Source: Flavobacterium faecale
Lineage (GTDB): Bacteria > Bacteroidota > Bacteroidia > Flavobacteriales > Flavobacteriaceae
Length of the DNA stretch: 64,000 nt
Direction: 5' to 3'
Assembly: GCF_003076455.1 (NCBI RefSeq)
Contig: NZ_CP020918.1
Coordinates: forward strand, 2,433,501 to 2,497,500
Positions within the stretch are counted from its first letter, which is position 1. Each line of letters begins with the position of its first letter. Below the pieces are notes generated by a model. The model did not search any database, had not been told where the DNA came from, and saw only the letters and a program-made list of their open reading frames with translations. Of the stretch, positions 1,106-60,667 are shown piece after piece. A program made the translations under genes and the position numbers.

Positions 1106-1206
1106 GGGCACGCCCCGCAGAAAAAGCGGGTCCGGGCTATTCACTATATCTTTTGTGCCGCTACCGCTTTACAAAAGGATGCCGTTGCTATCCCTCGTGC
1201 GCATAG
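1106..1206 (+). repeat. Dispersed structured repeat, copy 1
   Basis: Member of a family found six times in this window. It begins GGGCACGCC, has a first hairpin (CCCGC/GCGGG), then CGGGCTAT, then a second hairpin whose arms are roughly TCTTTTGT and ACAAAAGGA, and ends CTATCCCTCGTGCG. It fills most of the gene-free stretch 1044-1357; nothing else is evident there. Other copies: 11793 (minus), 16117, 32399, 48646 (plus) and 60558 (minus). Confidence 0.75.
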
Positions 1207-1357
1207 AGTGAAAATAGTGTATATTTAGGAAATTACCTTTTGTAAAGTTGTTTCACTTGTAATTAAATAGAGAACATGTTCATCAAGTTACTCCTGCCAA
1301 GTTACTATTTTAAGGAAAGGGAAATAGTTGTCTTTGTTCCGTTGTGATTTAGTATTT

Positions 1358-2095
1358 TTAATTTTTATAAATAAACTTAAAAATAATTTTCACAATAATC
1401 ATTAGTAGCGCAAGTAATAAATATCTTTTCCATTCAAACGTAGACGATTTAGTGTCTTGATTCTTATTTAAATGCTGCAATTGATAAACTCTAAAAGGAG
1501 TGTTTTTAAATAAATCGTCTCCCTCGTCATTGTCAATTTGTACTCCAAGTCTACGTTTCGCAATTTTAAAGGTAAAATCTTCCATTAACTGATCTTCTGT
1601 GAATGACTCCTCAATGTCATCATCGTATTTCCACAATAGTTGTTCGTTTTCAATATGGGAGTCCTTGTAAATTTCAACTTCCTCTTCAAAGCGGTTTCCC
1701 CATTCTTGTTTTATTTCAGAATCAACATATTTCAAGCGTTTCCTTTCTCCTTTTTGGATTAACGAATACCCGTGAAAATTTACTGAACTTGCACAGCTAA
1801 CGGTTACTATTTCTGAGTCAGGAAATATTTTAACTAAACTTTTTTCATATTCTACCAAGTTTAAATTTTCACTTCCTTCAAGTGACTTACTGGTCAAAAT
1901 ATATCCGTCACAAAGTATAATGTTACCGTTGTAGTATCCAATTCCAATTTGATTCTCTTTTGGATTCAATATGGCATCAAAAGATGTATCCTCTTTATAT
2001 TCAAAATTTTTAAAACCTAAAATTTTTAAAAGTTCAACTTCATCAGAAAAGTGTTCTCTATTTTCAATAATAATTAAAGACGTATTCCAACCCAT
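1358..2095 (-). CDS. Hypothetical protein with C-terminal membrane anchor, downstream of HigBA
   Basis: I do not recognise the family. The frame stays open to a TTG at 2140, but the first ATG, at 2095, gives a natural start (MGWNTSLIIIEN), 245 residues. The body is hydrophilic and acidic, with an EEDD-rich middle part. The last ~25 residues form one hydrophobic segment (LLLALLMIIVKIIFKFIY) ending in a short basic tail, as in a tail-anchored protein facing the cytoplasm. It begins 58 bp after the antitoxin stop on the same strand and is probably cotranscribed with the toxin-antitoxin pair. Whether it is part of that system is unknown. Confidence 0.6.
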   Translation of the reverse strand: MGWNTSLIIIENREHFSDEVELLKILGFKNFEYKEDTSFDAILNPKENQIGIGYYNGNIILCDGYILTSKSLEGSENLNLVEYEKSLVKIFPDSEIVTVSCASSVNFHGYSLIQKGERKRLKYVDSEIKQEWGNRFEEEVEIYKDSHIENEQLLWKYDDDIEESFTEDQLMEDFTFKIAKRRLGVQIDNDEGDDLFKNTPFRVYQLQHLNKNQDTKSSTFEWKRYLLLALLMIIVKIIFKFIYKN

Positions 2096-2152
2096 ATATT
2101 CAGTTTTATAATTCAATCGCTTGCAAGAAACCAGAAACAAAAGTAAATGTTT

Positions 2153-2458
2153 TTATAACTTAATAGAGAGTTCCAAATGCCCGCCTAAACCAAGTTCAAC
2201 AATTTTTTGCAAAGTTGAGAATCGAGCTTCTTTAATATTATTTTCGATTTTTGAAATATAAGATTTGGTAGTTCCTGTTTTTTCGGCGAGTTGTTCCTGG
2301 GTTAAACCTCTTTCGAGTCTTGCTTCTTGAATCATTGCTCCAATTTTAAAATTTTCATAATTAGCATCAAGTTCGTCTCGTTTCGGGCTACCAACTTCAC
2401 CATAATGTTTGTCCTTGAATTGGTCTAATGTTCTTGTATTACTATTTTTCGCTTTCAT
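2153..2458 (-). CDS. higA: HigA-like XRE-family antitoxin
   Basis: 101 residues with a helix-turn-helix of the Xre/Cro type at about residues 40-75 (MIQEARLERGLTQEQLAEK followed by TGTTKSYISKIEN). The N-terminal ~35 residues are polar and the last ~20 hydrophobic. The start overlaps the end of the toxin frame by 17 nt, and the toxin gene comes first, the HigBA order. Known role of the family: it binds and neutralises the toxin and represses the shared promoter. Assignment as an antitoxin rests on the domain and on this arrangement. Confidence 0.85.
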   Translation of the reverse strand: MKAKNSNTRTLDQFKDKHYGEVGSPKRDELDANYENFKIGAMIQEARLERGLTQEQLAEKTGTTKSYISKIENNIKEARFSTLQKIVELGLGGHLELSIKL

Positions 2459-2789
2459 AGTCCTGTTTTATTTTAATTGCTTTCTCAATTTCTTTTTTAG
2501 GAGTCTTTTGTGTTTTCTTCAGAAATCCGTTAGCTAAGATTATTAATTTCCCTTGATCAAAAAAACAAAATATTCTAAAAATATCACTTCCTTGCTTCAC
2601 TCTAATTTCATAAAGCCCATTAGTGTTTTCAATATGTTTAAGATAATTTTCTGGAACTCTTTCTAACTCTTCAATTAGTTCTAATGTCCAGATAATTTTG
2701 TCTTTAACTTTGGTACGTTGCTTTACAAAGAAGTCTTCAAAGTAATCCTTGTAAAATAGAATTGTACGTATCTTGGGTTTGCTACTCAT
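2442..2789 (-). CDS. higB: HigB/RelE-type toxin (phage Gp49-like family)
   Basis: 115 residues from the ATG at 2789; the frame runs up to a TTG at 2804 that I consider unlikely. The fold is recognisable by the helix KVKDKIIWTLELIEEL, the strand GLYEIRVKQGSDIFRIFCFFD and LIILANGFLKKTQKTPKKEI. These are features of the Gp49-like branch of RelE/HigB toxins, which cut mRNA, usually on the ribosome. A TAnnTTTG -7 box (TATATTTG) lies at 2801-2794 on the minus strand, leaving almost no leader before the ATG. The gene overlaps the antitoxin gene downstream. Confidence 0.85.
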   Translation of the reverse strand: MSSKPKIRTILFYKDYFEDFFVKQRTKVKDKIIWTLELIEELERVPENYLKHIENTNGLYEIRVKQGSDIFRIFCFFDQGKLIILANGFLKKTQKTPKKEIEKAIKIKQDYESEK

Positions 2790-3094
2790 TTTACAAATAT
2801 ACAAAAGTTGTCCTTAAGTGAAACTTTTGTCAAAGTAAATTGTGTAATTTGTTTGTAATTAGGAAAGTACATGGTATTTTAATTTTTCATAAGAACATTA
2901 AGGTGGCCATTTTCAAATTTAAATAGTAATAATAGGTAGTGTAATATAAAAAGGACTAGCGTTATTTTGTTCAAATTAACATTTCAAACCTAAAGTAAAA
3001 ATATCTCTCTAAATAAGTGTTAACGGGTATTAAAATAGCGTTAAACCCAAATTTTGGTGATTACTGCTCATAGTATTTTTTGTAATTTTAGGAT
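2790..3094. other. Intergenic region between higB and the NmrA-like gene
   Basis: 305 bp between divergent genes. It holds the minus-strand -7 box for higB (2801-2794) and, at about 3083-3090, TAATTTTA, a near match to a -7 box for the plus-strand gene. No other feature is apparent. Confidence 0.5.
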
Positions 3095-3727
3095 ATGGAA
3101 AATATATTAGTAGCAGGTGCAAACGGCACCACCGGAAAAAAAATCATAGCCCTTTTACATACATCAGACAATTTTAACCCAATTGCAATGGTGAGAAAAG
3201 AGGAGCAACAAACCTATTTTAAAGATCAAAATATAGAGACCGTTTTAGGCGATCTTACGGATAATGTTGACTCCGTCTTCAACACTAAAATTGATCGCGT
3301 AATTTTTGCTGCCGGTTCAGGCGGTAAAAATGTGGTTGGTGTAGACCAAGAAGGAGCAAAGAAAATGATAGATGCTTCTAAGAAAGCGAATGTCAAAAAA
3401 TTTGTAATGCTTAGCTCTATGGGTGCTGACAAACCTGAGGAAGCAACACAATTGGTCGATTATTTAAAGGCCAAACACAACGCCGACGAATATTTGAAAT
3501 CAAGTGGACTAGAATATAGCATTGTTAGACCTGGAACGTTGACCAATGACGATCAGCTAGCAACAATTGAATTAGCCCTAAAATTAAACAAAAGAGGAGA
3601 AATCAGTCGTGCTGATGTGGCGCAAACGTTAGTACAAAGTTTAGCAGATAAAACAGCTACAAATGCCACATTTGAAATCATCAAAGGAGAAAAAAATATC
3701 ACAGAAGCACTAGCTCAAATGAACTAG
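3095..3727 (+). CDS. NAD(P)-binding NmrA-like/SDR oxidoreductase family protein
   Basis: 210 residues. The N-terminus ILVAGANGTTGKKI carries the glycine-rich dinucleotide-binding motif GxxGxxG of a Rossmann fold. Later parts match atypical short-chain dehydrogenases of the NmrA/YwnB type: VLGDLTD, VIFAAGSGG, FVMLSSMGAD and YSIVRPGTL. The classical SDR YxxxK dyad is replaced by the looser YLKAKHNADEYLK stretch, as usual in atypical SDRs, which often act as NAD(P)H-sensing or isomerase proteins rather than plain dehydrogenases. It stands alone, divergent from higBA. The substrate is not predictable. Confidence 0.85.
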   Translation: MENILVAGANGTTGKKIIALLHTSDNFNPIAMVRKEEQQTYFKDQNIETVLGDLTDNVDSVFNTKIDRVIFAAGSGGKNVVGVDQEGAKKMIDASKKANVKKFVMLSSMGADKPEEATQLVDYLKAKHNADEYLKSSGLEYSIVRPGTLTNDDQLATIELALKLNKRGEISRADVAQTLVQSLADKTATNATFEIIKGEKNITEALAQMN

Positions 3728-4172
3728 TATTATAAAGGCGAAGCGACAGCTTTTGTTTGTCGTCAATTGATAATTTGGGCCGAAATAGTTAAATTGACAC
3801 CCATTTAGCGTTCCCTAGGTTAGCAACTGTAATGGTTATATTGCTCATCTACGGAACGCTATTTTGATTTATTGGCAGTTCCAACCAACTTTTAGTTCCA
3901 AACGTCGCAGAGGTAGAGTGCAGATACTTACTTTACATTGATAGTGATTATAAAATTTACCAAAAAAACCGAAAGGGCGCTAGTAAAATAACGTTCTTTC
4001 GGTCTTTTTAGTAAAGCAATACAAACGAATAAACATTGCTTTGATACGGTTTAAAATTTAATTAGCATATAAAACGACTAAGAATCATAGCTTGTTTGAT
4101 ATCTATTTTGATCAAATGATTTTACGATTTTGTAATATTTTGTTTAAGGCTTCAGACTAGAAGAATGTTTTG
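3728..4172. other. Gene-free stretch with one terminator-like hairpin
   Basis: No credible ORF. At 3969-4002 there is an 11-bp stem (CCGAAAG pairing with CTTTCGG, extended by two G-U and two G-C pairs) followed by TCTTTTTA. It would work as a plus-strand terminator but lies about 240 bp after the previous stop codon. Nothing else is clear. Confidence 0.5.
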
Positions 4173-4763
4173 TTATTTTCTATAAATGAAGCATCCCGCT
4201 TCAGATGGGTGATCTAATACCAAAGAATTCATGTCTTCTTTACGCAAGAGATTAATAATCATGAAGTCTCCAATTGCAACAACTGTGAACAAAATGGCAA
4301 ATAGTAAAACAAAAATATTTCCAAATAATATCGCATAAATAGCGGGTAGAAAACCTAGTATGATGGCAGGCATTATGGCTCCCGTAATATATTCTTTAAC
4401 TCGTAAGGGTTCGGTGCAATGGCAATAGGGTGTTAGCATTTTCCAAAGGAATCCAAATTTGATTGATTTAAATCGTTTTTTAGTATATTTTGCCCAAGTA
4501 ATTCCATGAATCAGTTCGTGCACAACAATGCCCAAAGTTATCACCAACATAATTATAGCAAGAACTTCAAATCTAGTATAAGAAAGAGCAGCTTCTTTAA
4601 TTGAGGTTCTAAACGCATGCGGGTTTAATTTGTCTTTCCAGAGTAGTAAAAACGGAAACAAATACACAATCACGATTGGAATCGCGCCGAAAATCCCATA
4701 AATATTTGCTTTCACTATATTAATCGTCAATTTATCTTTTTTGTAATGATCTAAATTTTGCAT
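4173..4763 (-). CDS. DUF3267-type membrane zinc metalloprotease
   Basis: 196 residues with four to five predicted membrane segments. The motif HELIHG at about residues 83-88 is the HExxH zinc-binding signature, sitting at the end of a hydrophobic helix (EVLAIIMLVITLGIVVHEL), as in DUF3267 and site-2-protease-like proteins. PYCHCTEPL follows about 25 residues later and then two long hydrophobic stretches. A minus-strand TATATTTG -7 box lies at 4819-4812. The gene stands alone. Proteolytic activity is inferred from the motif; the substrate is unknown. Confidence 0.75.
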   Translation of the reverse strand: MQNLDHYKKDKLTINIVKANIYGIFGAIPIVIVYLFPFLLLWKDKLNPHAFRTSIKEAALSYTRFEVLAIIMLVITLGIVVHELIHGITWAKYTKKRFKSIKFGFLWKMLTPYCHCTEPLRVKEYITGAIMPAIILGFLPAIYAILFGNIFVLLFAILFTVVAIGDFMIINLLRKEDMNSLVLDHPSEAGCFIYRK

Positions 4764-5101
4764 TTGAATGTGTGTTGGAGAATAGATTAATAAAATAAGT
4801 TACTAAAGGAACAAATATAACAAAGTTTATCTTTGATTTTCTATAAATTACGTTATTTTACTTACAAATTCCGATGCAAATAAGCGAGTATTATACTAAT
4901 TGATTTTCTTTTGAGGATAGCGCAAGTATATTTTTTTTTACTTGCTATAGATCAATCAACTGCAAAATCATTAACGGTACAACATGGTTAACAAGGTTGC
5001 TATAATTTATTTTGATTGTCAAAAATTAGATTCTGAAATCTGCTAAGGTAGGTAGTTGTGCTTCGTTTAGTAATGACGCTTTCAGATTAGTATTGTAGAA
5101 A
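4764..5101. other. Intergenic region, 338 bp
   Basis: Contains the -7 box for the metalloprotease gene (4819-4812, minus). Otherwise AT-rich sequence with no ORF, repeat or hairpin that I can support. Confidence 0.5.
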
Positions 5102-5383
5102 TTAACTCAAGACCTCAAAAGATCCGTCATTGCCAATAAATAGTTCTTTGTGTAATGAATCTGGTTTTGAGTTTCCTTCAAAACAGGAACAAGAAGCAGG
5201 ATAGTCACAGCTGTAAAGTATCGATACTTTTATCTGATTGCCATTTGTGTTTTCTACATCACTCAAGATAACAATCTCTAGTTCATCAAAATTAGGCCAA
5301 CCGCCATTATTACAAAAATCTAATGGGTTGAAAAGTTTAATATTCTTTTTTATTTGAGAGGTGACGAAGTCCTTATCGAGCAT
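5102..5383 (-). CDS. Small hypothetical protein
   Basis: 93 residues from the ATG at 5383; the frame is open to a TTG at 5410. No signal peptide or membrane segment. It has four cysteines, three of them close together (YSCDYPASCSCFEG), perhaps a metal or disulfide site. The start LDKDFVTSQIKKNI and the even composition look like a real protein, but I recognise no family. It is isolated, with repeat-rich DNA upstream. Confidence 0.5.
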   Translation of the reverse strand: MLDKDFVTSQIKKNIKLFNPLDFCNNGGWPNFDELEIVILSDVENTNGNQIKVSILYSCDYPASCSCFEGNSKPDSLHKELFIGNDGSFEVLS

Positions 5384-6064
5384 AGTTTGATTTGTTGGTT
5401 GAGTGCCCAAATTTAATCAATTTATCTCAGAGTGTAAAGTGTACTTTTTCCTGCGGTTTTGCTCGCAACAGCGGGGTAAATTGAAGTTTTATAAGCACAA
5501 GAACACAAAGTGCATCTTCAAAAGTCTTTGCGAGCGTAGCGCGGCAATCACGTATGCTAGATCTACAAAGCTTTTTAAACCATATAAGAGATTGAAGCTC
5601 ATGTAAGTCCAGCAACACAAATTGCGTCTTAATAAGTCATTGCAACGAAGAGGCTGTCCCGATTTTTCGGGCAACGTATGCGCTGATGTGAAGGAAAACA
5701 CAATGAAACCAGCCTATTTATGGCTTAAAAAAAAAGAGGACGCTTTGTCCTCTTAAATTACCTAAACTTGTTTATCGAGATCCCCATAGTGGCGGAAGTA
5801 GAGCGGTGAGCATGTCCTGAGCGATAGCCGAAGGGTTCAACCGCGGTTTATTTGTTGGCTTTTCAAGCCCAACGAAATCTTTGCTGTTAGGCATAGGCTA
5901 TTTTTGATTATCTGCTTGCTTAAAATGTAAATACATGGAATGAAAGCTACAAAATTTTCATCAAATTAGAAAAATACTTTATTCAAAATCTATCCAACTT
6001 AAAAAATGAGCAGACTATATTTTAAATCTTATCCTTACGACTCTCGCGCACTAGGTAAAATATT
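5384..6064. other. Repeat-rich gene-free stretch
   Basis: Short ORFs on both strands here are incompatible with one another and follow repeat sequence. The stretch holds a REP-like unit (5522-5556), a degenerate second one near 5633-5690, a hairpin AAGAGGAC/GTCCTCTT at 5734-5754 preceded by an A-run (a minus-strand terminator, possibly of the sulfatase gene), and at about 5814-5840 a copy of a CTGAGCG-GCCGAAGG repeat of a kind common between flavobacterial genes. Confidence 0.6.
5522..5556 (+). repeat. REP-like repeat unit
   Basis: Shares TTGCGAGCGTAGCG and GCAATCACGTATG with the unit at 7878-7913 and, in inverted form, with that at 7804-7834. The ends are self-complementary in part. Confidence 0.6.
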
Positions 6065-7914: not shown

Positions 7915-8000
7915 ATCATACCTTATTATTCCATTCTTTGATTTTGTAATGATTCTTAGATTCAAGTGATAAATGCAACACTCCTTATTTGTTTAAATAA

Positions 8001-11686: not shown

Positions 11687-11792
11687 ATATTAATTTATTT
11701 CCAAATTTATTATTTTTTTCTTACAAATGATCAAAAGGAGTTTTTATTTGTTGCAAACTTCTTGTACTAAAATGTAAGTGTACTGTGGGTGG

Positions 11793-11946
11793 TTTTGCGT
11801 GAGGGATAGGAATGGAAAGCCCGCAAACAAGTGTAGCGATAGCGAAACTTGTTGAGAACTTGCAATGGATAGCCCGACAGCACTGAGCTAAGGGGCTTAA
11901 TCTAGCATAAGTAGAGTAAGCCCCTTTGCTTGGTGTTGGCACGCCC
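11793..11946 (-). repeat. Dispersed structured repeat, copy 2
   Basis: Read on the minus strand it begins GGGCGTGCC, has hairpin 1 with arms AAGGGGCTTA/TAAGCCCCTT, then TCGGGCTATCC, hairpin 2 with arms AACAAGT/ACTTGTT, then GCGGGCTTTCC and the ending CTATCCCTCACGCAAA. An 85-codon ORF read through it is an artefact. The flanks in 11687-12031 hold a putative -7 box at 11709-11702 (minus) and the terminator at 11977. Confidence 0.75.
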
Positions 11947-13154: not shown

Positions 13155-16007
13155 ATGCCGAAAGACACATCAATTAAATCCGTTTTAATAATAGGTTCAG
13201 GTCCAATTGTAATTGGTCAAGCTTGTGAATTTGATTATGCAGGATCGCAATCTGCACGATCTATTCGTGAGGAAGGAATAGAAGTTATCTTGATAAACTC
13301 TAATCCTGCAACGATTATGACTGACCCTTCTATGGCAGATCATATTTATTTGAAGCCTCTAACTACCAAATCAATCATTGAAATCCTTAAGGAACATCCT
13401 CAAATTGATTCTGTTTTGCCTACAATGGGAGGACAAACGGCTCTAAACTTATGTTTGGAAGCTGATGAAAAAGGGATTTGGAAAGATTTTGGTGTTAAAA
13501 TGATTGGTGTTGATGTTAACGCCATTAATATTACTGAAGACAGAGAGCAGTTTAAACAATTGCTTCAAAAAATTGGTGTTCCTACTGCACCGGCAGAAAT
13601 TTGTACTTCGTACCTAAGAGGTAAAGAAATTGCTCAGGAATATGGTTTTCCATTGGTAATTCGTCCTTCTTTTACACTTGGAGGAACAGGTGGAGCTGTG
13701 GTATACAAACCAGAAGATTTTGATAAGTTATTGACACAAGGTTTGGAGGCTTCTCCAATTCACGAAGTCTTGATTGACAAAGCTTTGATGGGATGGAAAG
13801 AATATGAATTAGAGTTATTAAGAGATAAAAATGACAACGTAGTAATCATTTGTTCGATCGAAAATATGGACCCAATGGGGATTCATACTGGAGATTCGAT
13901 CACGGTTGCACCTGCGATGACATTGTCTGATACTACTTTCCAAAAATTACGTGATTATGCGATCTTAATGATGCGTAGTATTGGTAATTTTGCTGGAGGT
14001 TGTAATGTACAGTTCGCTGTGTCACCAGACGAAAAAGAAGATATTGTAGCGATTGAAATTAATCCTCGTGTCTCTCGTTCTTCTGCATTGGCGTCTAAAG
14101 CTACTGGTTACCCGATTGCAAAAATCGCAACCAAATTGGCATTAGGATACAACTTGGACGAATTGCAAAACCAAATTACAAAATCGACTTCGGCTTTGTT
14201 CGAACCGACTTTGGATTATGTGATTGTAAAAATTCCACGTTGGAACTTTGATAAATTCGAAGGTTCAGACAGAACTTTGGGAATCCAAATGAAATCGGTA
14301 GGAGAGGTAATGGGAATTGGACGTTCGTTCCAAGAAGCTTTACACAAAGCTACGCAATCCTTAGAGATCAAACGAAATGGTTTGGGTGCTGACGGAAAAG
14401 GATATACCAACTACGAGCAAGTAATCGAGAAATTAACCAATGCAAGTTGGGATCGTGTATTTGTAATTTATGATGCAATTGCAATGGGAATTCCGTTGAG
14501 CCGTATTCACGAGATCACCAAAATCGACATGTGGTTCTTGAAACAATACGAAGAACTTTATACATTAGAAAAAGAAATTTCTAAATATACTGTAGCCAAT
14601 TTGCCAAAAGAATTGTTGTTGGAAGCGAAACAAAAAGGTTTTGCCGACAGACAAATCGCGCACATGATGAAATGTCTAGAAAGCGAAGTACACACTTTGC
14701 GTATGGACAAGAACATCAACCGTGTGTTTAAATTGGTAGATACTTGTGCTGCAGAGTTTGAAGCTAAAACACCATATTACTATTCTACTTTTGAGGCAGA
14801 AATCGAAAAAGCAGATGGTACCCGTTATGTAGACAACGAAAGCATTGTTACAGACAAAAAGAAAATCGTAGTACTTGGTTCTGGACCAAACAGAATTGGG
14901 CAAGGAATCGAATTTGATTACTCTTGTGTACACGGAGTTTTGGCTGCCAAAGAATGTGGATACGAAACAATCATGATCAACTGTAACCCAGAAACGGTTT
15001 CGACTGATTTTGATACAGCAGACAAATTGTATTTCGAACCTGTTTATTGGGAGCATATATACGACATCATCCAACACGAAAAACCAGAAGGTGTAATCGT
15101 GCAGTTAGGTGGTCAAACGGCTCTTAAATTGGCTGAAAAACTATCTAAATACGGCGTAAAAATCATTGGAACTAGTTTTGATGCTTTGGATTTAGCCGAA
15201 GATAGAGGACGTTTCTCTGACTTGTTAACCGAGTTAGACATTCCGTTCCCACAATTTGGAATCGCAGAAACTGCTGACGAAGCTTCGGCTTTGGCAGATA
15301 CTTTAGACTTTCCATTATTGATTCGTCCTTCTTATGTTTTGGGTGGTCAAGGAATGAAAATTGTAATCAACAAACAAGAATTGGAAGAGCACGTTGTGAA
15401 CTTGCTTAAAACGATTCCTGGAAATAAATTACTGTTAGACCATTATCTTGATGGTGCGATCGAAGCAGAAGCAGATGCAATTTGCGACGGTGAAAACGTA
15501 TACATCATCGGAATCATGGAGCATATCGAGCCTTGTGGAGTGCACTCTGGAGACAGTAACGCTACTTTGCCTCCTTTTAATCTAGGAGAGTTTGTAATGC
15601 AACAAATTAAAGACCATACTAAGAAAATCGCTTTGGGATTAAAGACTGTTGGTTTAATCAACATTCAGTTTGCAATAAAAGATGAAACAGTTTACATCAT
15701 CGAAGCCAACCCAAGAGCATCTCGTACGGTTCCGTTTATTGCAAAAGCGTACGGTGAGCCTTATGTGAACTACGCTACCAAAGTAATGTTGGGTCACAAT
15801 AAAGTAACCGATTTTACTTTCAACCCACAATTAAAAGGATTCGCAATCAAGCAACCGGTTTTCTCTTTCAGCAAGTTCCCGAATGTAAACAAAGCACTAG
15901 GACCAGAGATGAAATCAACAGGAGAAAGCATCTTGTTTATTGATGACCTAAAAGACGACCAGTTCTACGAATTGTACTCTAGAAGAAAAATGTACTTGAG
16001 TAAATAA
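13155..16007 (+). CDS. carB: Carbamoyl-phosphate synthase large subunit
   Basis: 950 residues. Two homologous halves are present: the first begins SVLIIGSGPIVIGQACEFDY and the second, at about residue 573, KIVVLGSGPNRIGQGIEFDY. Each has an ATP-grasp domain with IRPSFTLGGTGG and IRPSYVLGGQGM. The protein makes carbamoyl phosphate from ammonia (supplied by CarA), bicarbonate and two ATP, for pyrimidines and arginine. The usual length is ~1070. Here it ends at LYSRRKMYLSK, just where the C-terminal MGS-like regulatory domain would begin, so binding of UMP and ornithine there should be absent. Proteins of this length occur in flavobacteria, so this is probably not a truncation. carA is not in the window. 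Confidence 0.97.
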   Translation: MPKDTSIKSVLIIGSGPIVIGQACEFDYAGSQSARSIREEGIEVILINSNPATIMTDPSMADHIYLKPLTTKSIIEILKEHPQIDSVLPTMGGQTALNLCLEADEKGIWKDFGVKMIGVDVNAINITEDREQFKQLLQKIGVPTAPAEICTSYLRGKEIAQEYGFPLVIRPSFTLGGTGGAVVYKPEDFDKLLTQGLEASPIHEVLIDKALMGWKEYELELLRDKNDNVVIICSIENMDPMGIHTGDSITVAPAMTLSDTTFQKLRDYAILMMRSIGNFAGGCNVQFAVSPDEKEDIVAIEINPRVSRSSALASKATGYPIAKIATKLALGYNLDELQNQITKSTSALFEPTLDYVIVKIPRWNFDKFEGSDRTLGIQMKSVGEVMGIGRSFQEALHKATQSLEIKRNGLGADGKGYTNYEQVIEKLTNASWDRVFVIYDAIAMGIPLSRIHEITKIDMWFLKQYEELYTLEKEISKYTVANLPKELLLEAKQKGFADRQIAHMMKCLESEVHTLRMDKNINRVFKLVDTCAAEFEAKTPYYYSTFEAEIEKADGTRYVDNESIVTDKKKIVVLGSGPNRIGQGIEFDYSCVHGVLAAKECGYETIMINCNPETVSTDFDTADKLYFEPVYWEHIYDIIQHEKPEGVIVQLGGQTALKLAEKLSKYGVKIIGTSFDALDLAEDRGRFSDLLTELDIPFPQFGIAETADEASALADTLDFPLLIRPSYVLGGQGMKIVINKQELEEHVVNLLKTIPGNKLLLDHYLDGAIEAEADAICDGENVYIIGIMEHIEPCGVHSGDSNATLPPFNLGEFVMQQIKDHTKKIALGLKTVGLINIQFAIKDETVYIIEANPRASRTVPFIAKAYGEPYVNYATKVMLGHNKVTDFTFNPQLKGFAIKQPVFSFSKFPNVNKALGPEMKSTGESILFIDDLKDDQFYELYSRRKMYLSK

Positions 16008-16063: not shown

Positions 16064-16116
16064 TGCTTATTTTAAAGATTAGGAGCGAATGATTTGGCTT
16101 TTTTAGGAGACATTGT

Positions 16117-16194
16117 TCCCGCTTTCCGCTCCAATCTTGTGGCGGCATAAATGCCAGCCGCCACAAGGATTTCCACTTCAATCGGGGCTAAGGG
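16117..16194 (+). repeat. Dispersed structured repeat, copy 3 (lacks the first hairpin)
   Basis: Starts CCCGCTTTCCGCT, then a second-type hairpin with arms CTTGTGGCGGC/GCCGCCACAAGG, and ends CAATCGGGGCTAAGGG. The ending differs from copies 1, 2, 5 and 6 but matches the copy at 32399. Confidence 0.75.
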
Positions 16195-16237: not shown

Positions 16238-16415
16238 AACCGCAAAGACCGCAAAATACTACGCAAAGTTTGCAAAGCTTTGCGTTCCTAGCGATTTTAT
16301 TGAAAGGGTAAATAACCGCAAAGGACGCAAAGTACTACGCAAAGTTCGCAAAGCTTTGCGTTCCTAGCGTTTTATAGAAAGAGTAAAATCAACCTTTGCG
16401 AACTTTGCGGTTAAA
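16238..16415. repeat. Tandem CGCAAAG-rich repeat with inverted third copy
   Basis: Two copies of a 76-bp unit, beginning AACCGCAAAG at 16238 and 16314, share CTACGCAAAGTT and GCAAAGCTTTGCGTTCCTAG. A partial inverted copy (AACCTTTGCGAACTTTGCGG then TT) lies at about 16390-16412. Short frames through this region are artefacts. Confidence 0.75.
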
Positions 16416-16517
16416 CCTCACCAGCTATTTCTCAAAATCTATGGCGAAAATGATTTGAACCTTAATGCTAAAAAAGGTATTTTTGACATTCTTAATAATA
16501 CAAAAACTAAAAACAAC

Positions 16518-32349: not shown

Positions 32350-32398
32350 TTATCATTTTTTTCGAAGCAGATAAACAATTTTCTATCTGCCAATATCG

Positions 32399-32470
32399 TC
32401 CCGCTATCCGCTATATCTTTGTTTTTTAAAAGAAAAAAACAAAGGATACCGCTCCTATCGGGGCTAAGGG
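32399..32470 (+). repeat. Dispersed structured repeat, copy 4 (lacks the first hairpin)
   Basis: TCCCGCTATCCGCT, then hairpin arms CTTTGTTTTTT/AAAAAACAAAGG with a short loop, and the end CTATCGGGGCTAAGGG as in copy 3. It fills much of the 302-bp gap 32350-32651; nothing else is clear there. Confidence 0.75.
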
Positions 32471-45460: not shown

Positions 45461-45465
45461 TATTG

Positions 45466-45538
45466 TGACCCGACTGGGGCTCGAACCCAGGACCCCATCA
45501 TTAAAAGTGATGTGCTCTACCAACTGAGCTATCGAGTC
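45466..45538 (-). tRNA. tRNA-Lys (UUU), copy 1
   Basis: 73 nt, cloverleaf complete: acceptor GACTCGA/TCGGGTC, D-arm GCTCAGTTGGTAGAGC, anticodon stem CATCA/TGATG with loop CTTTTAA (anticodon TTT), T-arm CTGGGTTCGAGCCCCAG, discriminator A. CCA is not encoded. Identical in sequence to the two other copies. Confidence 0.97.
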
Positions 45539-45579
45539 AATATTTCAATGTAATCTACCTTTTCAACAGGTTGTTTATG

Positions 45580-45662
45580 TGACCACGGTGGGATTTGAAC
45601 CCACACGCCCTTACGAGCACCACCCCCTCAAGATGGCAAGTCTACCGTTTCTCCACGTGGCC
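45580..45662 (-). tRNA. tRNA-Leu (GAG)
   Basis: 83 nt with the long variable arm of class II tRNAs. Acceptor GGCCACG/CGTGGTC, anticodon stem CCATC/GGTGG with loop TTGAGGG (anticodon GAG), variable arm GTGCTCGTAAGGGCGT, T-arm TGTGGGTTCAAATCCCACC, discriminator A. CCA is not encoded. Confidence 0.95.
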
Positions 45663-45666
45663 GAAA

Positions 45667-45702
45667 AGAAAAAAAAAGGTTATTCGTAAAACGAACAACC
45701 TT
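45667..45702 (-). terminator. Terminator-like hairpin between tRNA-Lys copy 2 and tRNA-Leu
   Basis: GGTT-TTCG and CGAA-AACC pair around a short loop, with a T-run on the minus strand. Its sequence and the phase relative to tRNA-Lys match those of the hairpin at 45429, so hairpin and tRNA were probably duplicated together. It may end part of the transcripts before tRNA-Leu. Confidence 0.7.
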
Positions 45703-45705
45703 TTG

Positions 45706-45778
45706 TGACCCGACTGGGGCTCGAACCCAGGACCCCATCATTAAAAGTGATGTGCTCTACCAACTGAGCTATCGAGTC
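45706..45778 (-). tRNA. tRNA-Lys (UUU), copy 2
   Basis: 73 nt, identical to copy 1 (exactly 240 bp away). Anticodon TTT in loop CTTTTAA, discriminator A. Confidence 0.97.
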
Positions 45779-45817
45779 AATGCTAAAGGAAATAATTTAA
45801 TTTTGAATCACTATATG

Positions 45818-45890
45818 TGACCCGACTGGGGCTCGAACCCAGGACCCCATCATTAAAAGTGATGTGCTCTACCAACTGAGCTATCGAGTC
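45818..45890 (-). tRNA. tRNA-Lys (UUU), copy 3
   Basis: 73 nt, identical to copies 1 and 2; first of the cluster in transcription order (Lys, Lys, Leu, Lys). Confidence 0.97.
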
Positions 45891-48645: not shown

Positions 48646-48763
48646 GGGCGTGCCACCAAGCAAAGGCAAGGGCAAAGCAGTTTGCGCATATACGCCCTTG
48701 CCTTTGCTTGCTGTCGTGCTATCCGCGCTACTTTGGTAGCTGGCTCCTATCACTCACGCAAAA
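48646..48763 (+). repeat. Dispersed structured repeat, copy 5
   Basis: GGGCGTGCC, then a perfect 16-bp hairpin (arms AAGCAAAGGCAAGGGC and its complement), then GTCGTGCTATCCGC, a second hairpin GCTAC/GTAGC, and the end CTATCACTCACGCAAAA. The rest of 48764-49013 holds no feature that I can name. Confidence 0.8.
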
Positions 48764-53189: not shown

Positions 53190-53191
53190 TA

Positions 53192-54382
53192 TTATCTCAA
53201 GTTTTGTTTCATTCGATTAATAGCATTATCATACGTTGGGTTTGCTTTGTTTTGGGAGGCTTTGGTGAAATTATCCATAGCATCTTGCCACTGTCCTTTT
53301 TTTTCATAAATTCTACCAATATTGTAATACGAGCTTGCTTTTACCACATTTGCAGATGGGCCATTAGCTAAACTTACTGCTTTTCGGTTGGCCCAAATTG
53401 CTTCTGCAACCCGATTTAATTTTTGAAAAGAAAGGCCTAGGTTACTATATGCTTGACCGTTATTTTGATTGAGATTAATAGCTTGTTGGTAGTAAGCAAC
53501 AGACTGTTCTAGTTGTTTAGCATGATACGCATTTTCACCTCTTTTATTTACATCATTCGATTTCGAAATGTCTGTTTGACTTATAGCTGAGCGCTCAGTT
53601 ATGTTACTTTTTCCTCTTAAGACTTCTAGTTCTGAGCGAACACCTTCCCATTGATTAGCGTCATAGAATTTATTAACGTCTTGAAACGAGCCATTTTCAT
53701 CAACCATAAATACAACCCATATATTACCGCTTTGTCTTTTAGGTACTTTGTAAGAACGAATAAGAGTGTTACCGATATAGACATAAACACGAGCATCACT
53801 TACATCTGAAAGGCGATTTCCATAATTAGTATCTTTGTCGCTATAATCATGAACGGCATAAATATATTTTTGGCCAGGTTGTTTTCTTTCAATTGTAATG
53901 GTTTCTGGTCCATAACTATCGGTATCATCAACATCAAGATTTGCCATGGCACCCGTTTTATGATAGTAGCAAATGTGGTTACCAGGATATGAAATATGCG
54001 AATCCAAATCCAATGGTTGTGCCCCCCAACTAAGTACAATTCTCATTCCGTCAAGTTGCTCCATTATTGGACTAAGGGCATATGTTAAATTGTTGACAGG
54101 ACCTTTGGTTACTAGTGTAGAGTAGCCCGATTTTTTTATAATTAAAGTAACGTTGCTATCATCTACACCATCAAATATTCTAGGAATGCTAACCATTCCG
54201 TTTCCATCTGTAATGGTTTTGATAGAGGTTTCACCATTTTTCTGAAAAATAACTTCAGCTCCTTGAATTTTTTGGTTTTTGACTACTGCACTCAGAATTT
54301 GTACTTGTGTTTTTTCTTGTGAATAGACATTAACTGTTGTAAGTATAGCAATGAATAATGCTTTGATAACTGTTGATTTCAT
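53192..54382 (-). CDS. YfaP-like (DUF2135) protein with TPR repeats, secreted
   Basis: 396 residues with a signal peptide (to about residue 21). Next are an Ig-like or carboxypeptidase-regulatory-like domain (about 28-105: VKNQKIQGAEVIFQKNGETS), a DUF2135/YfaP-type domain (about 110-225: MRIVLSWGAQPLDLDSHISY, then DTDSYGPETITI), and TPR units at about 280-396 (AYHAKQLEQSVAYYQQAINL, AYSNLGLSFQKLNRVAEAIW). It is a periplasmic or surface protein of unknown role. It lies between the flotillin and the deacetylase, 24 and 2 bp apart. Confidence 0.8.
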   Translation of the reverse strand: MKSTVIKALFIAILTTVNVYSQEKTQVQILSAVVKNQKIQGAEVIFQKNGETSIKTITDGNGMVSIPRIFDGVDDSNVTLIIKKSGYSTLVTKGPVNNLTYALSPIMEQLDGMRIVLSWGAQPLDLDSHISYPGNHICYYHKTGAMANLDVDDTDSYGPETITIERKQPGQKYIYAVHDYSDKDTNYGNRLSDVSDARVYVYIGNTLIRSYKVPKRQSGNIWVVFMVDENGSFQDVNKFYDANQWEGVRSELEVLRGKSNITERSAISQTDISKSNDVNKRGENAYHAKQLEQSVAYYQQAINLNQNNGQAYSNLGLSFQKLNRVAEAIWANRKAVSLANGPSANVVKASSYYNIGRIYEKKGQWQDAMDNFTKASQNKANPTYDNAINRMKQNLR

Positions 54383-54405
54383 GATTTTTTATAACAATGA
54401 TTTAA

Positions 54406-55923: not shown

Positions 55924-55934
55924 TTATTTTGGTT

Positions 55935-56501
55935 TTAAAACGGGATTACAAATAATAAGGATTCATTTTCAATTTTGACTACTTTGACGGTACTGCCCGT
56001 TGGGATCGCGTCTGCCTCAGACATGGCATCAAGCTCATGGAAAGCACCATTGATACTAATCAGGATTTTACCTTTACCTGTTCTTTGCGCAGGTATTTTT
56101 AGATACACTTCTGCGGTTTTGTTCAATGTATTTTCGATTTTGAAGGAGTTGTTTTCTTCTAGTTTTTGTACTTGTTGAATGATCATAAAAAATATAAATA
56201 CAAACAAACAACCCACTGCCACAGATAATGCGATGAGTAATTTTTCATTTTCGATCAAAGTAAAAAAAGAGATTCCTGTCCAGCTGAAACCGAGTAGAAA
56301 GTGAATCAAGTTGCGCAATGAAAACAACTGAAACGGATGGTCGGCTCCGTCAAAATCGCCATCAAAATCAGGATCAATACCATCAGATCCGTCTGCTCCT
56401 GTGAAGGTCATGATGGTTTGAATGATAAAAATAACACTAATTGGAATGGCTACATACCAAAATGTTGCCAGTAATGGTGGTAAAGTATCGAATATTTCCA
56501 T
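55935..56501 (-). CDS. NfeD-like membrane protein with OB fold
   Basis: 188 residues from the ATG at 56501. Three hydrophobic segments (about 12-34, 69-88 and 91-114) precede a soluble beta-barrel OB domain (about 122-188: VYLKIPAQRTGKGKILISIN, TGSTVKVVKIENESLLFVIPF). A -7 box TATGTTTG at 56568-56561 lies just upstream, so the longer frame starting at 56585 cannot be right. NfeD proteins partner with SPFH proteins in the membrane. First gene of a four-gene operon. Confidence 0.85.
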   Translation of the reverse strand: MEIFDTLPPLLATFWYVAIPISVIFIIQTIMTFTGADGSDGIDPDFDGDFDGADHPFQLFSLRNLIHFLLGFSWTGISFFTLIENEKLLIALSVAVGCLFVFIFFMIIQQVQKLEENNSFKIENTLNKTAEVYLKIPAQRTGKGKILISINGAFHELDAMSEADAIPTGSTVKVVKIENESLLFVIPF

Positions 56502-56560
56502 AAAATTTAAATTAAATTGGGGGTAATTATAATTTATAAAAAGGAGGGTTGGTCGAAATA

Positions 56561-56568
56561 CAAACATA
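56561..56568 (-). promoter_or_regulatory. -7 box of the NfeD-flotillin operon
   Basis: TATGTTTG on the minus strand, about 60 bp before the ATG at 56501. TTTTTTTGG some 13-20 bp upstream may serve as the -33 element. Confidence 0.65.
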
Positions 56569-56654
56569 CTGAAAATACGTACCAAAAAAATTATTTCTAA
56601 GTAATTATTTATTTTTCAATATCTAAAACGAGATGCCAATGATGTGTACACAAA

Positions 56655-57290
56655 TTAAGTCAGTAATTGATCTAGTTGCTCCATGTTGTCAAAAACTGGA
56701 ATTTTCATCTCTTCAAAAGCTACTTTATTGTGTGCATTTATATAACCAAAAACTGCAAATCCACCTGCCAATGCGGCTTGTACACCAGCCGGACTATCCT
56801 CTATAACCACGCAATCGGCAATAGAATATCCCATTTTTTTGGCGGCATGTAGGTATAACTCAGGGTTTGGTTTCCAGCTGTTAATGTCATAGGCACTAAA
56901 TATCTTACCTTCAAATTTATCTAGCAAATGCACCGTGGTGAGGTTTACAATAATTTTTTCTCTCGGACCATTTGAGGCAACACAGTAATCAATATCAATT
57001 TTATTTAAAAGGGCATGAATACCGGGTATAGGTTGTAAACGGGTTTTAAAGGCATGAAAAGTACGATCTCGAAACTCAGTTTCAAAGTTCGCAGGGAGTT
57101 TTTGATTGGCCTGGTCTTGAATATATTTAAAACAAAAGGCCAACGATTTCCCTAGAAAATGATCCATAACAAATTCTTCTGTCAGGGTTACGCCAACGGT
57201 TTGCGCCATTTCGATCAATGTCAAGTTGGAGATGCTTTCGCTGTCGACAATTACGCCATCACAATCAAAGAGGATGCATTTGTATTTCAT
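56655..57290 (-). CDS. HAD-family hydrolase, beta-phosphoglucomutase-like
   Basis: 211 residues. ILFDCDGVIVDSE is HAD motif I (nucleophile Asp at 9), CVASNGPREKI is motif II, KPNPELYLHAAKKMGY has the motif III lysine, and CVVIEDSPAGVQAALAGG is motif IV. The helical cap is inserted after motif I, as in beta-phosphoglucomutase and phosphoglycolate-phosphatase-like enzymes. It removes phosphate from, or isomerises, a small phosphorylated sugar; which one is not certain. It follows the T9SS gene by 5 bp on the same strand. Confidence 0.88.
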   Translation of the reverse strand: MKYKCILFDCDGVIVDSESISNLTLIEMAQTVGVTLTEEFVMDHFLGKSLAFCFKYIQDQANQKLPANFETEFRDRTFHAFKTRLQPIPGIHALLNKIDIDYCVASNGPREKIIVNLTTVHLLDKFEGKIFSAYDINSWKPNPELYLHAAKKMGYSIADCVVIEDSPAGVQAALAGGFAVFGYINAHNKVAFEEMKIPVFDNMEQLDQLLT

Positions 57291-57295
57291 TATTT

Positions 57296-58738
57296 TTATT
57301 CTTTTATGATTTTGAAAGTTTGTGGGTACGGATTGTTATAAATTTTCAGAATATAAAAACCGGAAGGTAAAGCGCTAGTATTTATTTCGCCATCAATACT
57401 GCGACCATGTAAGACAGAGATGGATTGGTAATCAAAAAACTCAAAATCAAAAGTTTTGAATTCGTAATTCATGATAGTTAGATTATTTTGTACAGGGTTT
57501 GGAAAAACAAAAGGCTGTTTAGAAACACTTGCTTGACTTGCACTATTTTTACCGTTGCAAGCGGCTAGTAGCAGTGGCTCAAAATCCTTATCGTCATACA
57601 ACTTTACGTAGTCAAGTGCTTTAGCTTTTTGAAATAAGGTACAAGCTTCTTGATACTTTTCTTGATCGAGGTAGATAATACCTAAGTTTTTCATGGCGTA
57701 GCTATTGTTTTGCGCTCTATTCAAAACCTCTGTAAGATCTGCGATTCCTTTTTCCGTTTCGCCTAGTTTGTGGTAAGCCAATCCTCGAATTGCTTTGATG
57801 CATGGCCCATTGTCATAATTGCCGCCTTCTCTTTTTATAATATTTGCCTCTTTTTCTAAAGCCAAATTGGCATAGTACAAAGCTTTTTCATAATCCTGTA
57901 AAAGTAAGTATAGGTACGATATTCCCCATCTTGCATGTCCGTGTTGTGGGCTTTTTGCTAGTATTTTCTTTAAATAGGTTTCAGATAAGCGATAGGATTT
58001 AATCTTGGTTAGATAATTTGTGAAATTATACAATACCCTATAATCATTTGGAGAAGTTTTTATGGCTTTGGTGTAATAATGAAGCGCTGTGTTTTGCACT
58101 TCAAACATTGAATAAATGTTTGCCAGCGCATCATAAACAACAGTTTGTTTTACTATTAATTTTGCTCTTATCGAATCGGGAGCCTTTTTCTTCAGATCAT
58201 TTAAAGACAGGTCTAGTACTTTCTCTAGTTTTTTAAAATCCAAAATAGCAAGCGTGTAATTATTTAATTTCTTATATAGGTGCGCTCTTGCGTAAATGTC
58301 TTTTAAAGAAGTTGGGTTGAAATTGGTTCTTTTATTTATTTCCACCAAATTTTCTAAGGCCTTCTTTCTAGTATCTTCCTGTCTGGTATTTTCATAAGGA
58401 ATTTTATAATCGATTCTACCGCTTATTTTTCCATATAAAAATGTAGTGGAAACCATTTTTTCTCCTTCGATATTAAACTGGTCCGCAGCACCATCCATTA
58501 ATCCCATGGCGTCAAAGTAAAAAACTTCATTTTTTTTGCCATTTGCATGATACGTTTTGATACTGTCCATTTTCTTATCAACCCCCATGAAAAGTTGCAT
58601 AGATACAATACTGTCACGGTAGTAGTATGCCTTAGTTACTTCCTTCGAACTCGTTTTAAGATTTTTATTTGGGGTTGTTATTTGTCCCGTAGCTATAAAC
58701 GATAGGAGAAAGATGAAATAATGTAGTTTTGTATTCAT
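57296..58738 (-). CDS. Secreted TPR protein with T9SS type A sorting domain
   Basis: 480 residues with a signal peptide (to about residue 19). The N-terminal ~140 residues have MORN-like wording (SIKTYHANGKKNEVFYFDAM). TPR-like repeats run from about 145 to 400 (ALHYYTKAIKTSPNDYRVLY, ARWGISYLYLLLQDYEKALY, YAMKNLGIIYLDQEKYQEAC). The C-terminal ~70 residues (FVFPNPVQNNLTI, LPSGFYILKIYN, QTFKIIKE) are the type A sorting domain that directs secretion by the type IX system of Bacteroidota. Its function outside the cell is unknown. Likely cotranscribed with the HAD hydrolase gene. Confidence 0.85.
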   Translation of the reverse strand: MNTKLHYFIFLLSFIATGQITTPNKNLKTSSKEVTKAYYYRDSIVSMQLFMGVDKKMDSIKTYHANGKKNEVFYFDAMGLMDGAADQFNIEGEKMVSTTFLYGKISGRIDYKIPYENTRQEDTRKKALENLVEINKRTNFNPTSLKDIYARAHLYKKLNNYTLAILDFKKLEKVLDLSLNDLKKKAPDSIRAKLIVKQTVVYDALANIYSMFEVQNTALHYYTKAIKTSPNDYRVLYNFTNYLTKIKSYRLSETYLKKILAKSPQHGHARWGISYLYLLLQDYEKALYYANLALEKEANIIKREGGNYDNGPCIKAIRGLAYHKLGETEKGIADLTEVLNRAQNNSYAMKNLGIIYLDQEKYQEACTLFQKAKALDYVKLYDDKDFEPLLLAACNGKNSASQASVSKQPFVFPNPVQNNLTIMNYEFKTFDFEFFDYQSISVLHGRSIDGEINTSALPSGFYILKIYNNPYPQTFKIIKE

Positions 58739-58836
58739 AGGAAGAAGTTCTTGGTTAAGGAAATACTATTTTGCCGTTGAAATATACTACTTAATTAAAT
58801 TTTAGCAGACATTGATTTGCTTCTTTTTTTCGAAAA

Positions 58837-60399
58837 TTAAGAACTACATGACAACATGGAACAACCTACCTTATCACGAGCCCAATCAGGGCGCTTAGCA
58901 AACCATTTTTGCTGTTCCGGTTGTTCAGCATACGGATTTTTAAGCAGTTGAAACAATTCGTCAATCAAACTATAATCTTCTTTGTCGGCTGCGTCAATAG
59001 CAAGTTGCGACATATAGTTGCGTAAAACATATTTAGGATTTACCGCATTCATTTTTTCGCTACGTTCTGAGTTTGTTTCGTTTTCGAAAACCAATCTTTG
59101 GTTGTATTGTTCAAACCAAAGCGTCCATGTTGCTGTCACTTCAGGATATTCTTCTACCGACTGATAAAATGCATCTTGAATAATCGCAATTCCATTTTCA
59201 GGCTTTCCATTTTCGAACTGACTTAGATTTCGATAAAAAATGGTCATATCTGTTTCTATCAAATGCAAGTTTTCTTCGAGTAACTGAATAAATTTGTCAT
59301 CGCCTTCTTGATCCGTATACAAACCAATTTTGGAACGCATCATGTTCAAATATTTTACGTCATACTGTGTTCTGTAACTTTCTAAAACAGCTTCGAGTCC
59401 GGCTGCTTCATCAATAAGTGGGTAGAGCGCATTGGCAAGCTGGTAGAGATTCCACAAAACCATTTCGGGTTGTTTGCCATAACGGTAGCGCTTGTTTTGC
59501 GCATCGGTCGTATTGGGAGTCCATCCATAATCATAACCTTCGAGCCAGCCGTATGGGCCATAATCGATTGTGAGTCCAAGAATTGACATATTATCGGTAT
59601 TCATGACGCCGTGTACAAAACCAACGCGTTGCCAATGCAAAACCATATCTAAACTTCTGTTTGTTACTTCTTGAAAAAACTTCAAATAGGTCTCTTTTGA
59701 AGGGCTTCCTAAATCACTGTAAAAATGGTTAATTGTATAGTCTACCAAAGTTTTTAAAGTTTCATAATCCTGTCGAGCAGCAAAGATTTGGTAGTTACCA
59801 AAACGCAAAAAACTAGGAGCAAGGCGACTAACAATAGCTCCTTTTTCATAAGCTGGATTTCCGTTGTACAACATATCACGTAGCACTTGATCACCTGATA
59901 AGGAGAGAGACAAGGCACGGGTAGTGGGTACACCTAGGTGAAACATGGCCTCGCTACACAAGTACTCCCGTACAGAGGAGCGTAAAACGGCTAATCCATC
60001 TGCGGTTCTAGAATAAGGTGTTTTACCAGCGCCTTTGAGTTGTATTGCCCAGCGTTGGTTGTTATGCAACAGTTCGGTCAAATTAATTGCGCGTCCATCA
60101 CCAAGTTGACCTGCCCAGTTACCAAATTGAAAACCACCGTAGCACATAGCATAGGGTTGGGTGTTGGGTAGGATTTCGTTACCAGTAACAATATTTTTGA
60201 AATAGTCAGATTGCGTGTTTTCGATTGTGATTCCGATATTTTCTGCCATTTCGGGCGAAACATGTAGCACTTTTGGATTTGCAGTTTTGGTAGGGGTAAC
60301 AAAAGAGAAGCAAGCTTTTTCTACCTGTCTGATGCTATTGGTCATTATTGGGTCTGCTGGTAATTCTTTATTGAAGGTATCTTGTATGTTGAGTTTCAT
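58837..60399 (-). CDS. selO: Protein adenylyltransferase SelO (YdiU/UPF0061)
   Basis: 520 residues, the full length of the family. Signature parts are CYGGFQFGNWAGQLGDGRAI, IQLKGAGKTPYSRTADGLAV, then LRSSVREYLCSEAMFHLGVP, and FVHGVMNTDNMSILG, holding the pseudokinase-like active site, which AMPylates proteins with inverted ATP binding. The C-terminus ends in C513-SMLS-C518-SS, where eukaryotic SelO has its selenocysteine. The Cys pair may be redox-active and form a disulfide with an internal Cys. The family is linked to redox homeostasis. Single gene. Confidence 0.95.
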   Translation of the reverse strand: MKLNIQDTFNKELPADPIMTNSIRQVEKACFSFVTPTKTANPKVLHVSPEMAENIGITIENTQSDYFKNIVTGNEILPNTQPYAMCYGGFQFGNWAGQLGDGRAINLTELLHNNQRWAIQLKGAGKTPYSRTADGLAVLRSSVREYLCSEAMFHLGVPTTRALSLSLSGDQVLRDMLYNGNPAYEKGAIVSRLAPSFLRFGNYQIFAARQDYETLKTLVDYTINHFYSDLGSPSKETYLKFFQEVTNRSLDMVLHWQRVGFVHGVMNTDNMSILGLTIDYGPYGWLEGYDYGWTPNTTDAQNKRYRYGKQPEMVLWNLYQLANALYPLIDEAAGLEAVLESYRTQYDVKYLNMMRSKIGLYTDQEGDDKFIQLLEENLHLIETDMTIFYRNLSQFENGKPENGIAIIQDAFYQSVEEYPEVTATWTLWFEQYNQRLVFENETNSERSEKMNAVNPKYVLRNYMSQLAIDAADKEDYSLIDELFQLLKNPYAEQPEQQKWFAKRPDWARDKVGCSMLSCSS

Positions 60400-60557
60400 G
60401 AGCGTTTTATTTAATACAAAGATACGAATACTAATGTAGTGCTGTGCTTGGATAAGGTTTTTAAAAATTATCGAATTGTAAAAGTTGAGAAGAATAATTT
60501 AGTAGCTAATGTAAACTGACAACAATGAAAAATAGGACTTTAATATGTTTCTAGTGT

Positions 60558-60667
60558 TTTGCATGAGGGATTGCAGTGAAATCCTTTTTTGAGGCTTTTT
60601 TGCCTTAAAAAAGATTGGAACGAAAAGCCCGACGCTGGTGAAACGGAGTGGAAGCAGGGGCATGCCC
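60558..60667 (-). repeat. Dispersed structured repeat, copy 6
   Basis: Read on the minus strand: GGGCATGCCC, then a weakly paired region, TCGGGCTTTTCGTTCC, a second hairpin of 12 bp with arms GCCTCAAAAAAG and its partner, and the end CAATCCCTCATGCAAAA. It fills most of the gene-free 60400-60740. Confidence 0.78.

Follow-up and report, generated by a model that had tools for sequence, protein, structure and literature searches.

Flavo-1 repeats of Flavobacterium faecale and other Bacteroidia: a covarying fold that may belong to a small mobile element

In this work we analyzed six dispersed repeats in a stretch of 64,000 nucleotides of the Flavobacterium faecale genome (contig NZ_CP020918.1, positions 2,433,501 to 2,497,500; hereafter the window). 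To judge from core sequence and fold, the six are members of the Rfam family Flavo-1 (RF01705) or close core variants of it, and their fold is conserved by evolution more than their sequence letters. The best explanation, to which we give a little less than an even chance, is a small non-autonomous mobile element which behaves like a REP (repetitive extragenic palindrome) or a MITE (miniature inverted-repeat transposable element) and is recognized as a folded single strand. Flavo-1 as a family was already known; the evidence presented here speaks less for a small RNA (sRNA) gene and more for a mobile element which is recognized by its folded strand and sometimes retained. At some sites it may serve the host.

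Coordinates and strands of the elements are given on the strand used in the preliminary description of the window, below called the reading strand. In this direction an element of roughly 90-150 bp is composed of a P1 arm, hairpin A (hpA, in type A only), a P2 arm, the loop CTWTCC and a P3 arm of two bases, followed by a short loop, AT, hairpin B (hpB), a bulged G, AT and another short loop, and finally by the second P3 arm, a CTNCTAT-like loop and the second arms of P2 and P1. Hairpin B is thereby framed as AT[C hairpin B G]GAT. All six repeats are present at the positions and on the strands at which the preliminary description had placed them, both orientations occurring in the window, and the shared blocks it had listed sort into two main end forms. 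Type A ends in GGGCRTG..CACGC or variants thereof (elements 1106, 11793, 48646 and 60558), type B/C in GGAGC or GAAGC..GGGGCTA (16117 and 32399). The stems exist in many versions: GCGTG/CACGC, GCATG/CATGC, GCATT/AATGC, GCGTT/AACGC, GCGTA/TACGC, GCACG/CGTGC and GTGTG/CACAC for P1 of type A; CGGG/CCCT, CAGG/CCTT, CGTG/CACT, CCCG/CGGG, CCTG/CAGG, CCAG/CTGG and CCGG/CCGG for P2; and GC/GC, GT/AC, AC/GT and AT/AT for P3.

Covariation of the stems was assessed in 160 parsed copies from this and other genomes, 32 copies being unparsed (for the most part variants of the core or copies in which palindromes are nested), and compared with 1000 shuffles, a null that ignores relatedness. In type B the third pair of P2 (P2.3) is Watson-Crick in 113/119 copies as compared to a shuffle mean of 49.4 and a maximum of 62. 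P3.2 (110/119; mean 60.0, maximum 75) and pair 6 of hairpin B (110/119; mean 43.6, maximum 58) behave likewise, and P3.1 is paired in 116/119 copies with a shuffle maximum of 93. P3.2 of type A is paired in 40/41 copies (shuffle maximum 30); pairing of P2.2 and P2.3 in this type merely equals the shuffle maximum and does not exceed it, P2.1 is paired in none of the 41 copies, and invariant stem positions are uninformative on covariation. For P1 of type A, 189/190 cells are Watson-Crick across 38 F. faecale copies, a value favoured by choosing the 5' arm for its fit to the 3' arm; the count derives from 79 of 92 F. faecale rows (90 fetched copies and two window elements), eight misparsed rows and five duplicates from rRNA flanks having been dropped. 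The hairpin arms thus vary and nevertheless stay paired, as the preliminary description had stated, and in this check over copies of several genomes several pairs beat all 1000 shuffles. Selection for structure, one of the two causes it had considered, is backed by the covariation beyond shuffles and by paired changes at one orthologous site.

This site, the spacer between rpmH and carB, was examined across species because the shuffles ignore relatedness. Eighty related carB loci were kept, with rpmH identified by eye from the sequence. An element lies between the two genes in 14/80 loci (among them L089, L094, L095, L096, L104 and L112); it starts 74-88 bases past the rpmH stop codon in 13 of these, and in L083 the contig starts within the element. 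In L087, L090, L091, L097, L106 and L108, rpmH is found upstream of carB and the element is absent. In a tree built from 79 carB rows (the window and 78 loci; L039 and L042 were excluded for an interrupted match), a clade of 16 rows with support 98 contains 12 filled sites, three empty ones (L079, L090, L108) and L093, which has no rpmH upstream. A sub-clade of seven (support 100) carries the element in 7/7 rows, L112 lies outside the 16-row clade, and with L093 scored as empty the presence of the element requires five changes on the tree. At this site P2.3 is C-G, T-A or G-C and is Watson-Crick in 11/11 parsed elements, a count that omits the unparsed L083, L110 and L111; the pair requires at least four changes on the carB tree, the number being equal for each side. 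A block near CTGTTTATAAATTTTGATAAGTTTT was also observed 5' of the element, between the rpmH terminator and carB, at several loci among L085-L115. It is present in several element-free loci as well and is possibly a regulatory site.

The copies come and go, as is evident from a near-identical pair of copies with unrelated flanks and from the element-free sites in relatives. The pair (L172/L175) shares 97.7% identity over 87 bp, ending near P1 on both sides, and older-looking pairs with 88-94% identity are present in genomes G060 and G215. The F. faecale genome (4.62 Mb) contains at least 92 matches to RF01705 at E up to 1e-3 among the 150 of 1227 candidates that were scored; 90 of them were analyzed with their flanks. 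Among the Bacteroidia, matches were found in 82/197 sampled genomes and 49/118 genera, with 1 to at least 22 matches per genome (22 candidates scored per genome), none in the other 115 genomes and none in 14 control genomes.

Furthermore, the mismatches tolerated in the stems were used to ask which strand folds. In hairpin B of 163 distinct copies (identical hairpins counted once, 18 unparsed, G-T and A-C scored alike), 35 A-C and 8 G-T mismatches are present on the reading strand beside 1938 Watson-Crick pairs (p 4e-5), which on Rfam's strand are 35 G-U and 8 A-C. P3 shows 11 A-C versus 1 G-T (p 0.006) and P2 2 A-C versus 4 G-T on the reading strand. As a control at the RNA level, terminator-like hairpins of the same DNA (n=274) contain 104 G-T versus 38 A-C; wobble is scarce in hairpin B, with 1.7% of pairs versus 3.7% in this control. 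The bias points to folding of Rfam's strand, as RNA or as single-stranded DNA, with less support than there is for the covariation.

According to simple open-frame calls, 89/90 F. faecale copies are intergenic, the exception (L161) lying inside a predicted open frame. Their gene context on the reading strand is ++ in 30, -- in 23, +- in 18, -+ in 12 and other in 7 cases; a preference for convergent genes, which had been proposed as a point to look for, was not found among these 90 copies. In the flank past the Rfam 3' end, the box TANNTTTG (-7 box) is more frequent on Rfam's strand than in shuffles (45/182 flanks, shuffled mean 14.2); in our reading these boxes belong to promoters of the genes that follow. 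In 17/43 copies (reading direction) and 15/36 copies (Rfam direction) such a box separates the element from the downstream gene, and in 3/43 and 3/36, respectively, it is found on the far side of the element; these are raw counts without shuffle control from unequal search lengths. Both flanks are enriched in T-runs and A-runs, and T-rich bases precede the element on the reading strand (59 aligned 5' ends). The copies thus appear to lie between terminators and promoters, and many of them seem to be outside transcripts, since the boxes fall between the element and the next gene. This apparent position agrees with a transcriptome study of F. psychrophilum, in which hits and transcripts are reported as not consistently related and some transcribed 5' regions as coinciding (PMC9723704). 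The element itself was rejected as an intrinsic terminator: on the reading strand mostly purines, and not a T-run, come directly after it (112 aligned 3' ends).

In the mechanism we favour, the element would be recognized via the fold of one strand, that of Rfam, and would settle in the spacer that separates the terminator of one gene from the promoter of the next. The fold would be required for mobility, presumably with an enzyme acting on it, and the variable hairpins would result from compensatory change and from the capture of small palindromes in loops.

Several observations weigh against this mechanism. Inspection by eye revealed no target-site duplication. Flavo-1 was present within 1.5 kb of 0/29 Y1 transposase loci resembling subclass 2.6 and of 0/20 scanned loci (of 29) resembling subclass 1.2, the subclasses being named after a survey (PMC6006769) and assigned by motif resemblance. 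A bias towards one replication strand, which would be in line with single-strand transposition of the IS200/IS605 type, is indicated in F. faecale (permutation p 0.021; p 0.002-0.13 with fixed boundaries) and was not seen in G036 (p 0.76) and G045 (p 0.50). The mismatch bias is weaker in the F. faecale copies, at 14 A-C:8 G-T in a looser count (p 0.29) and 12:4 in a stricter one (p 0.08), and most copies from other genomes are the best Rfam scorers, a selection by which G-U may be overrepresented on Rfam's strand. Finally, the element was retained with intact pairing in 12/16 rows of the carB clade, and in the sister pair L110/L111 it matches at 53/53 positions against an identity of 88.1% for carB and 83% for the spacer (in the pair L096/L104, 86% for the element, 84% for carB and 70% for the spacer). 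Retention and identity suggest host-level selection and count against a dead insertion, which should not show it. Repeated insertion at a hot spot between rpmH and carB may be an alternative to retention, since similar hairpins are found elsewhere (L265, L276).

With respect to a partner enzyme, a 2.6-like gene co-occurs with Flavo-1, being present in 56/82 genomes with and 47/115 genomes without the element (p 1.7e-4). It is absent from 4/20 genomes with at least ten Flavo-1 matches, and in one genome with 21 matches (G455) neither a 2.6-like nor a 1.2-like Y1 gene was found. Both Y1 kinds of F. faecale were rejected as the cognate transposase, copies not lying beside them except for one weak copy (36.4 bits) about 150 bases from the Y1 gene L031. 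The Y1 genes L031 and L032 (YIxNQEEHH kind) adjoin other small repeats, CCCGTAGGGAT and GGCTAAAGCC, in contrast to the report in the survey that subclass 1.2 is without REP (PMC6006769). The Y1 genes L033 and L034 (YIHNNP kind) have hairpin repeats of their own on either side; these carry CCGCTANCGC and resemble the loops of some Flavo-1 hairpins. A recent mobile unit of more than 1.6 kb (the L019 family) was likewise rejected, as it turned out to consist of upstream flanks of rRNA operons (Rfam confirmed the rRNA for L258 alone). In six long, similar F. faecale segments (L258-L263), of which L258 was shown to lie 5' of an rRNA operon, the start of homology nearly coincides with the left end of a Flavo-1 element; TATG runs follow the element, and tandem repeats of 117-233 bp are present in 4/6.

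The foremost alternative is a host-functional RNA or RNA element: Rfam's strand would be transcribed, its fold would act in cis or in trans, and copies would be selected in place. The lean towards G-U on Rfam's strand in hairpin B and P3, the repeated paired changes of P2.3 between rpmH and carB and the identity of the L110/L111 elements all speak for it. However, TANNTTTG upstream of the Rfam 5' end, with 9/182 flanks against a shuffled mean of 12.2 (one box, 90 bases searched), is no commoner than in shuffles, and an own sRNA promoter was discarded as unsupported. The orientation relative to genes is near random, and the boxes of the next gene fall beyond the element. We consider this explanation rather unlikely, and clearly less probable than a mobile element.

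Less probable still is a host element at the DNA level; a hairpin or cruciform might, for instance, shield adjacent transcription units from each other or serve as the binding site of a structural protein. This would agree with the location in spacers in both orientations, with the conservation observed at one orthologous site and with the lack of a significant strand bias when the F. faecale copies are taken alone. A cruciform, however, treats both strands equally, yet the mismatches of all copies are strand-biased; moreover, the copy number is highly uneven, 115/197 genomes being without a match.

Hairpin variety stems from two processes, namely paired change of stems and capture of small palindromes in loops. 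We counted 20 CCCGA..TCGGG palindromes in the 13.5 kb of element DNA and 4 in the remaining intergenic DNA of these loci (44.6 kb), a density about 16-fold higher inside the elements (raw, uncorrected for base composition). They are located in hairpin loops or replace an internal loop and are carried by 15/85 F. faecale copies (L010, L163, L170, L180, L181, L184, L188, L189, L191, L192, L194, L199, L204, L205 and L206). A palindrome of this type distinguishes L014 from L189, the two sharing 88.5% identity over 227 bp. In L208, L209 and L210, from two other Bacteroidia genomes, a repeated unit of about 310 bp contains Flavo-1 together with a second hairpin; in the about 92% identical units of L210 the arms of the second hairpin are swapped together, GTAAAGC/GCTTTAC versus GCCCCGC/GCGGGGC. 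A mechanism that generates palindromes, the other cause named in the preliminary description, is in part supported by the palindrome density. That template switching or unrelated insertions generated the palindromes with no selection on structure, which this density and the exchanged L210 arms would favour, is nevertheless improbable and for P2 and P3 mostly excluded, given that these short stems outside the hairpins covary too, as does P1 subject to the arm-selection caveat; part of the variety of hairpin B and of the loops is still owed to such an origin.

A similarly slim chance is given to Flavo-1 as a bacterial counterpart of SINEs (short interspersed nuclear elements), that is, an enzyme-less structured RNA reinserted by a reverse transcriptase starting at T-rich sites. 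Such a mechanism would agree with selection on the fold of one strand and T-rich bases directly before the element on the other, the lack of a visible target duplication, the unsteady replication-strand bias and the missing link to the tested Y1 genes. If true, the loops of Flavo-1 would be landing sites for still smaller palindromes.

Four of the six window elements (Table 1) reach the gathering cut-off of RF01705 (42 bits), all four with hits opposite to the reading strand. The core form of element 11793 recurs in the copies L197 and L203. The 48646-like compact core is also present in L110/L111, at the site where relatives carry ordinary Flavo-1. In element 60558 a clear first hairpin was not seen. 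F. sufflavum (L040) has an element at the place equivalent to 16117, in which P2 CCCG/CGGG is changed to CCTG/CAGG. Just 3' of element 16117 (16240-16420) lie the direct repeats ACCGCAAAG, TACTACGCAAAGTT and GCAAAGCTTTGCGTTCCTAGCG, and a tRNA cluster with three tRNA-Lys(ttt) and one tRNA-Leu(gag) occupies 45465-45890.

Table 1. Flavo-1 elements of the window and the carB gene, with matches to RF01705.
Feature	Position	Strand	Description	RF01705 hit	Hit strand	Bits
Element 1106, type A	1106..1200	+	P1 GGGCACG/CGTGC; hpA CCCGC/GCGGG; P2 CGGG/CCCT; P3 AC/GT; hpB CTTTTGT..ACAAAAG	1126-1208	-	44.3
Element 11793, type A	11797..11946	-	large hpA AAGGGGCTTA/TAAGCCCCTT; core variant AAGT..GGGCTT	11792-11883	+	33.7 (under gathering cut-off)
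carB (carbamoyl-phosphate synthase large chain)	13155..16007	+	Pfam PF02786, PF25596; reference gene for orthologous sites			
Element 16117, type B/C	16082..16190	+	3' of carB terminator; hpB CTTGTGGCGGC/GCCGCCACAAG	16111-16193	-	74.5
Element 32399, type B/C	32364..32466	+	hpB CTTTGTTTTTT/AAAAAACAAAG; P2 CCCG/CGGG	32393-32469	-	76.0
Element 48646, type A	48646..48759	+	long hpA stem CAAGCAAAGGCAAGGGC/GCCCTTGCCTTTGCTTG; compact core CCGCGCTAC..GTAGCTGGC; P2 CGTG/CACT			
Element 60558, type A	60561..60667	-	between divergent genes; P1 GGGCATG/CATGC; hpB CTTTTTTAAGGC..GCCTCAAAAAAG	60556-60638	+	57.9

Rfam's Flavo-1 and the window elements share core sequence and fold. The Rfam model comprises 76 positions on the opposite strand, covers neither hairpin A nor the outer P1 arm of type A and fails to detect the compact core of element 48646, for which no match up to E 1 was obtained. 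The Flavo-1 motif was listed by Weinberg et al. 2010 (PMC2864571) and is named among the most abundant Rfam sRNA families in a review, in the passage concerned without a stated function (PMC9029176). Repeats of this look had been said to have no described function; in the open-licence literature passages naming Flavo-1 with sRNA none is given, and none was found here either, but the family itself is described.

In being short, palindromic, intergenic, variable and of high copy number, Flavo-1 resembles the REP/RAYT system (TnpA_REP, a Y1 transposase). Unlike REPs, its copies are not beside the tested Y1 genes; Y1 subclass 2.6 is said to lack the GT[AG]G tetranucleotide that marks the foot of the stem in the REP/RAYT system (PMC6006769).

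With MITEs and the enterobacterial repeats of the RUP/ERIC type the elements share a length of ~100-150 bp, the lack of coding capacity, dispersal, complementary ends and foldability; they differ in that no target-site duplication is visible by eye and in that their short stems covary. Integron attC sites likewise fold as a single strand with conserved boxes; they have an unpaired spacer and an extra-helical base, and their terminal hairpin varies. Since Flavo-1 copies are dispersed, whereas attC sites stand in cassette arrays, this likeness is a structural analogy alone.

The Rfam label 'sRNA' finds no support here from promoter boxes or placement. It is doubtful because many copies seem to lie outside transcripts and because copies come and go, and it is probably wrong or incomplete. 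If this is true, a large family annotated as 'sRNA' would in fact be mobile or structural in nature, and the fold behind its covariation would be one that some machinery recognizes. Sites of the rpmH-carB type, occupied in certain species and vacant in others, let both views be tested directly.

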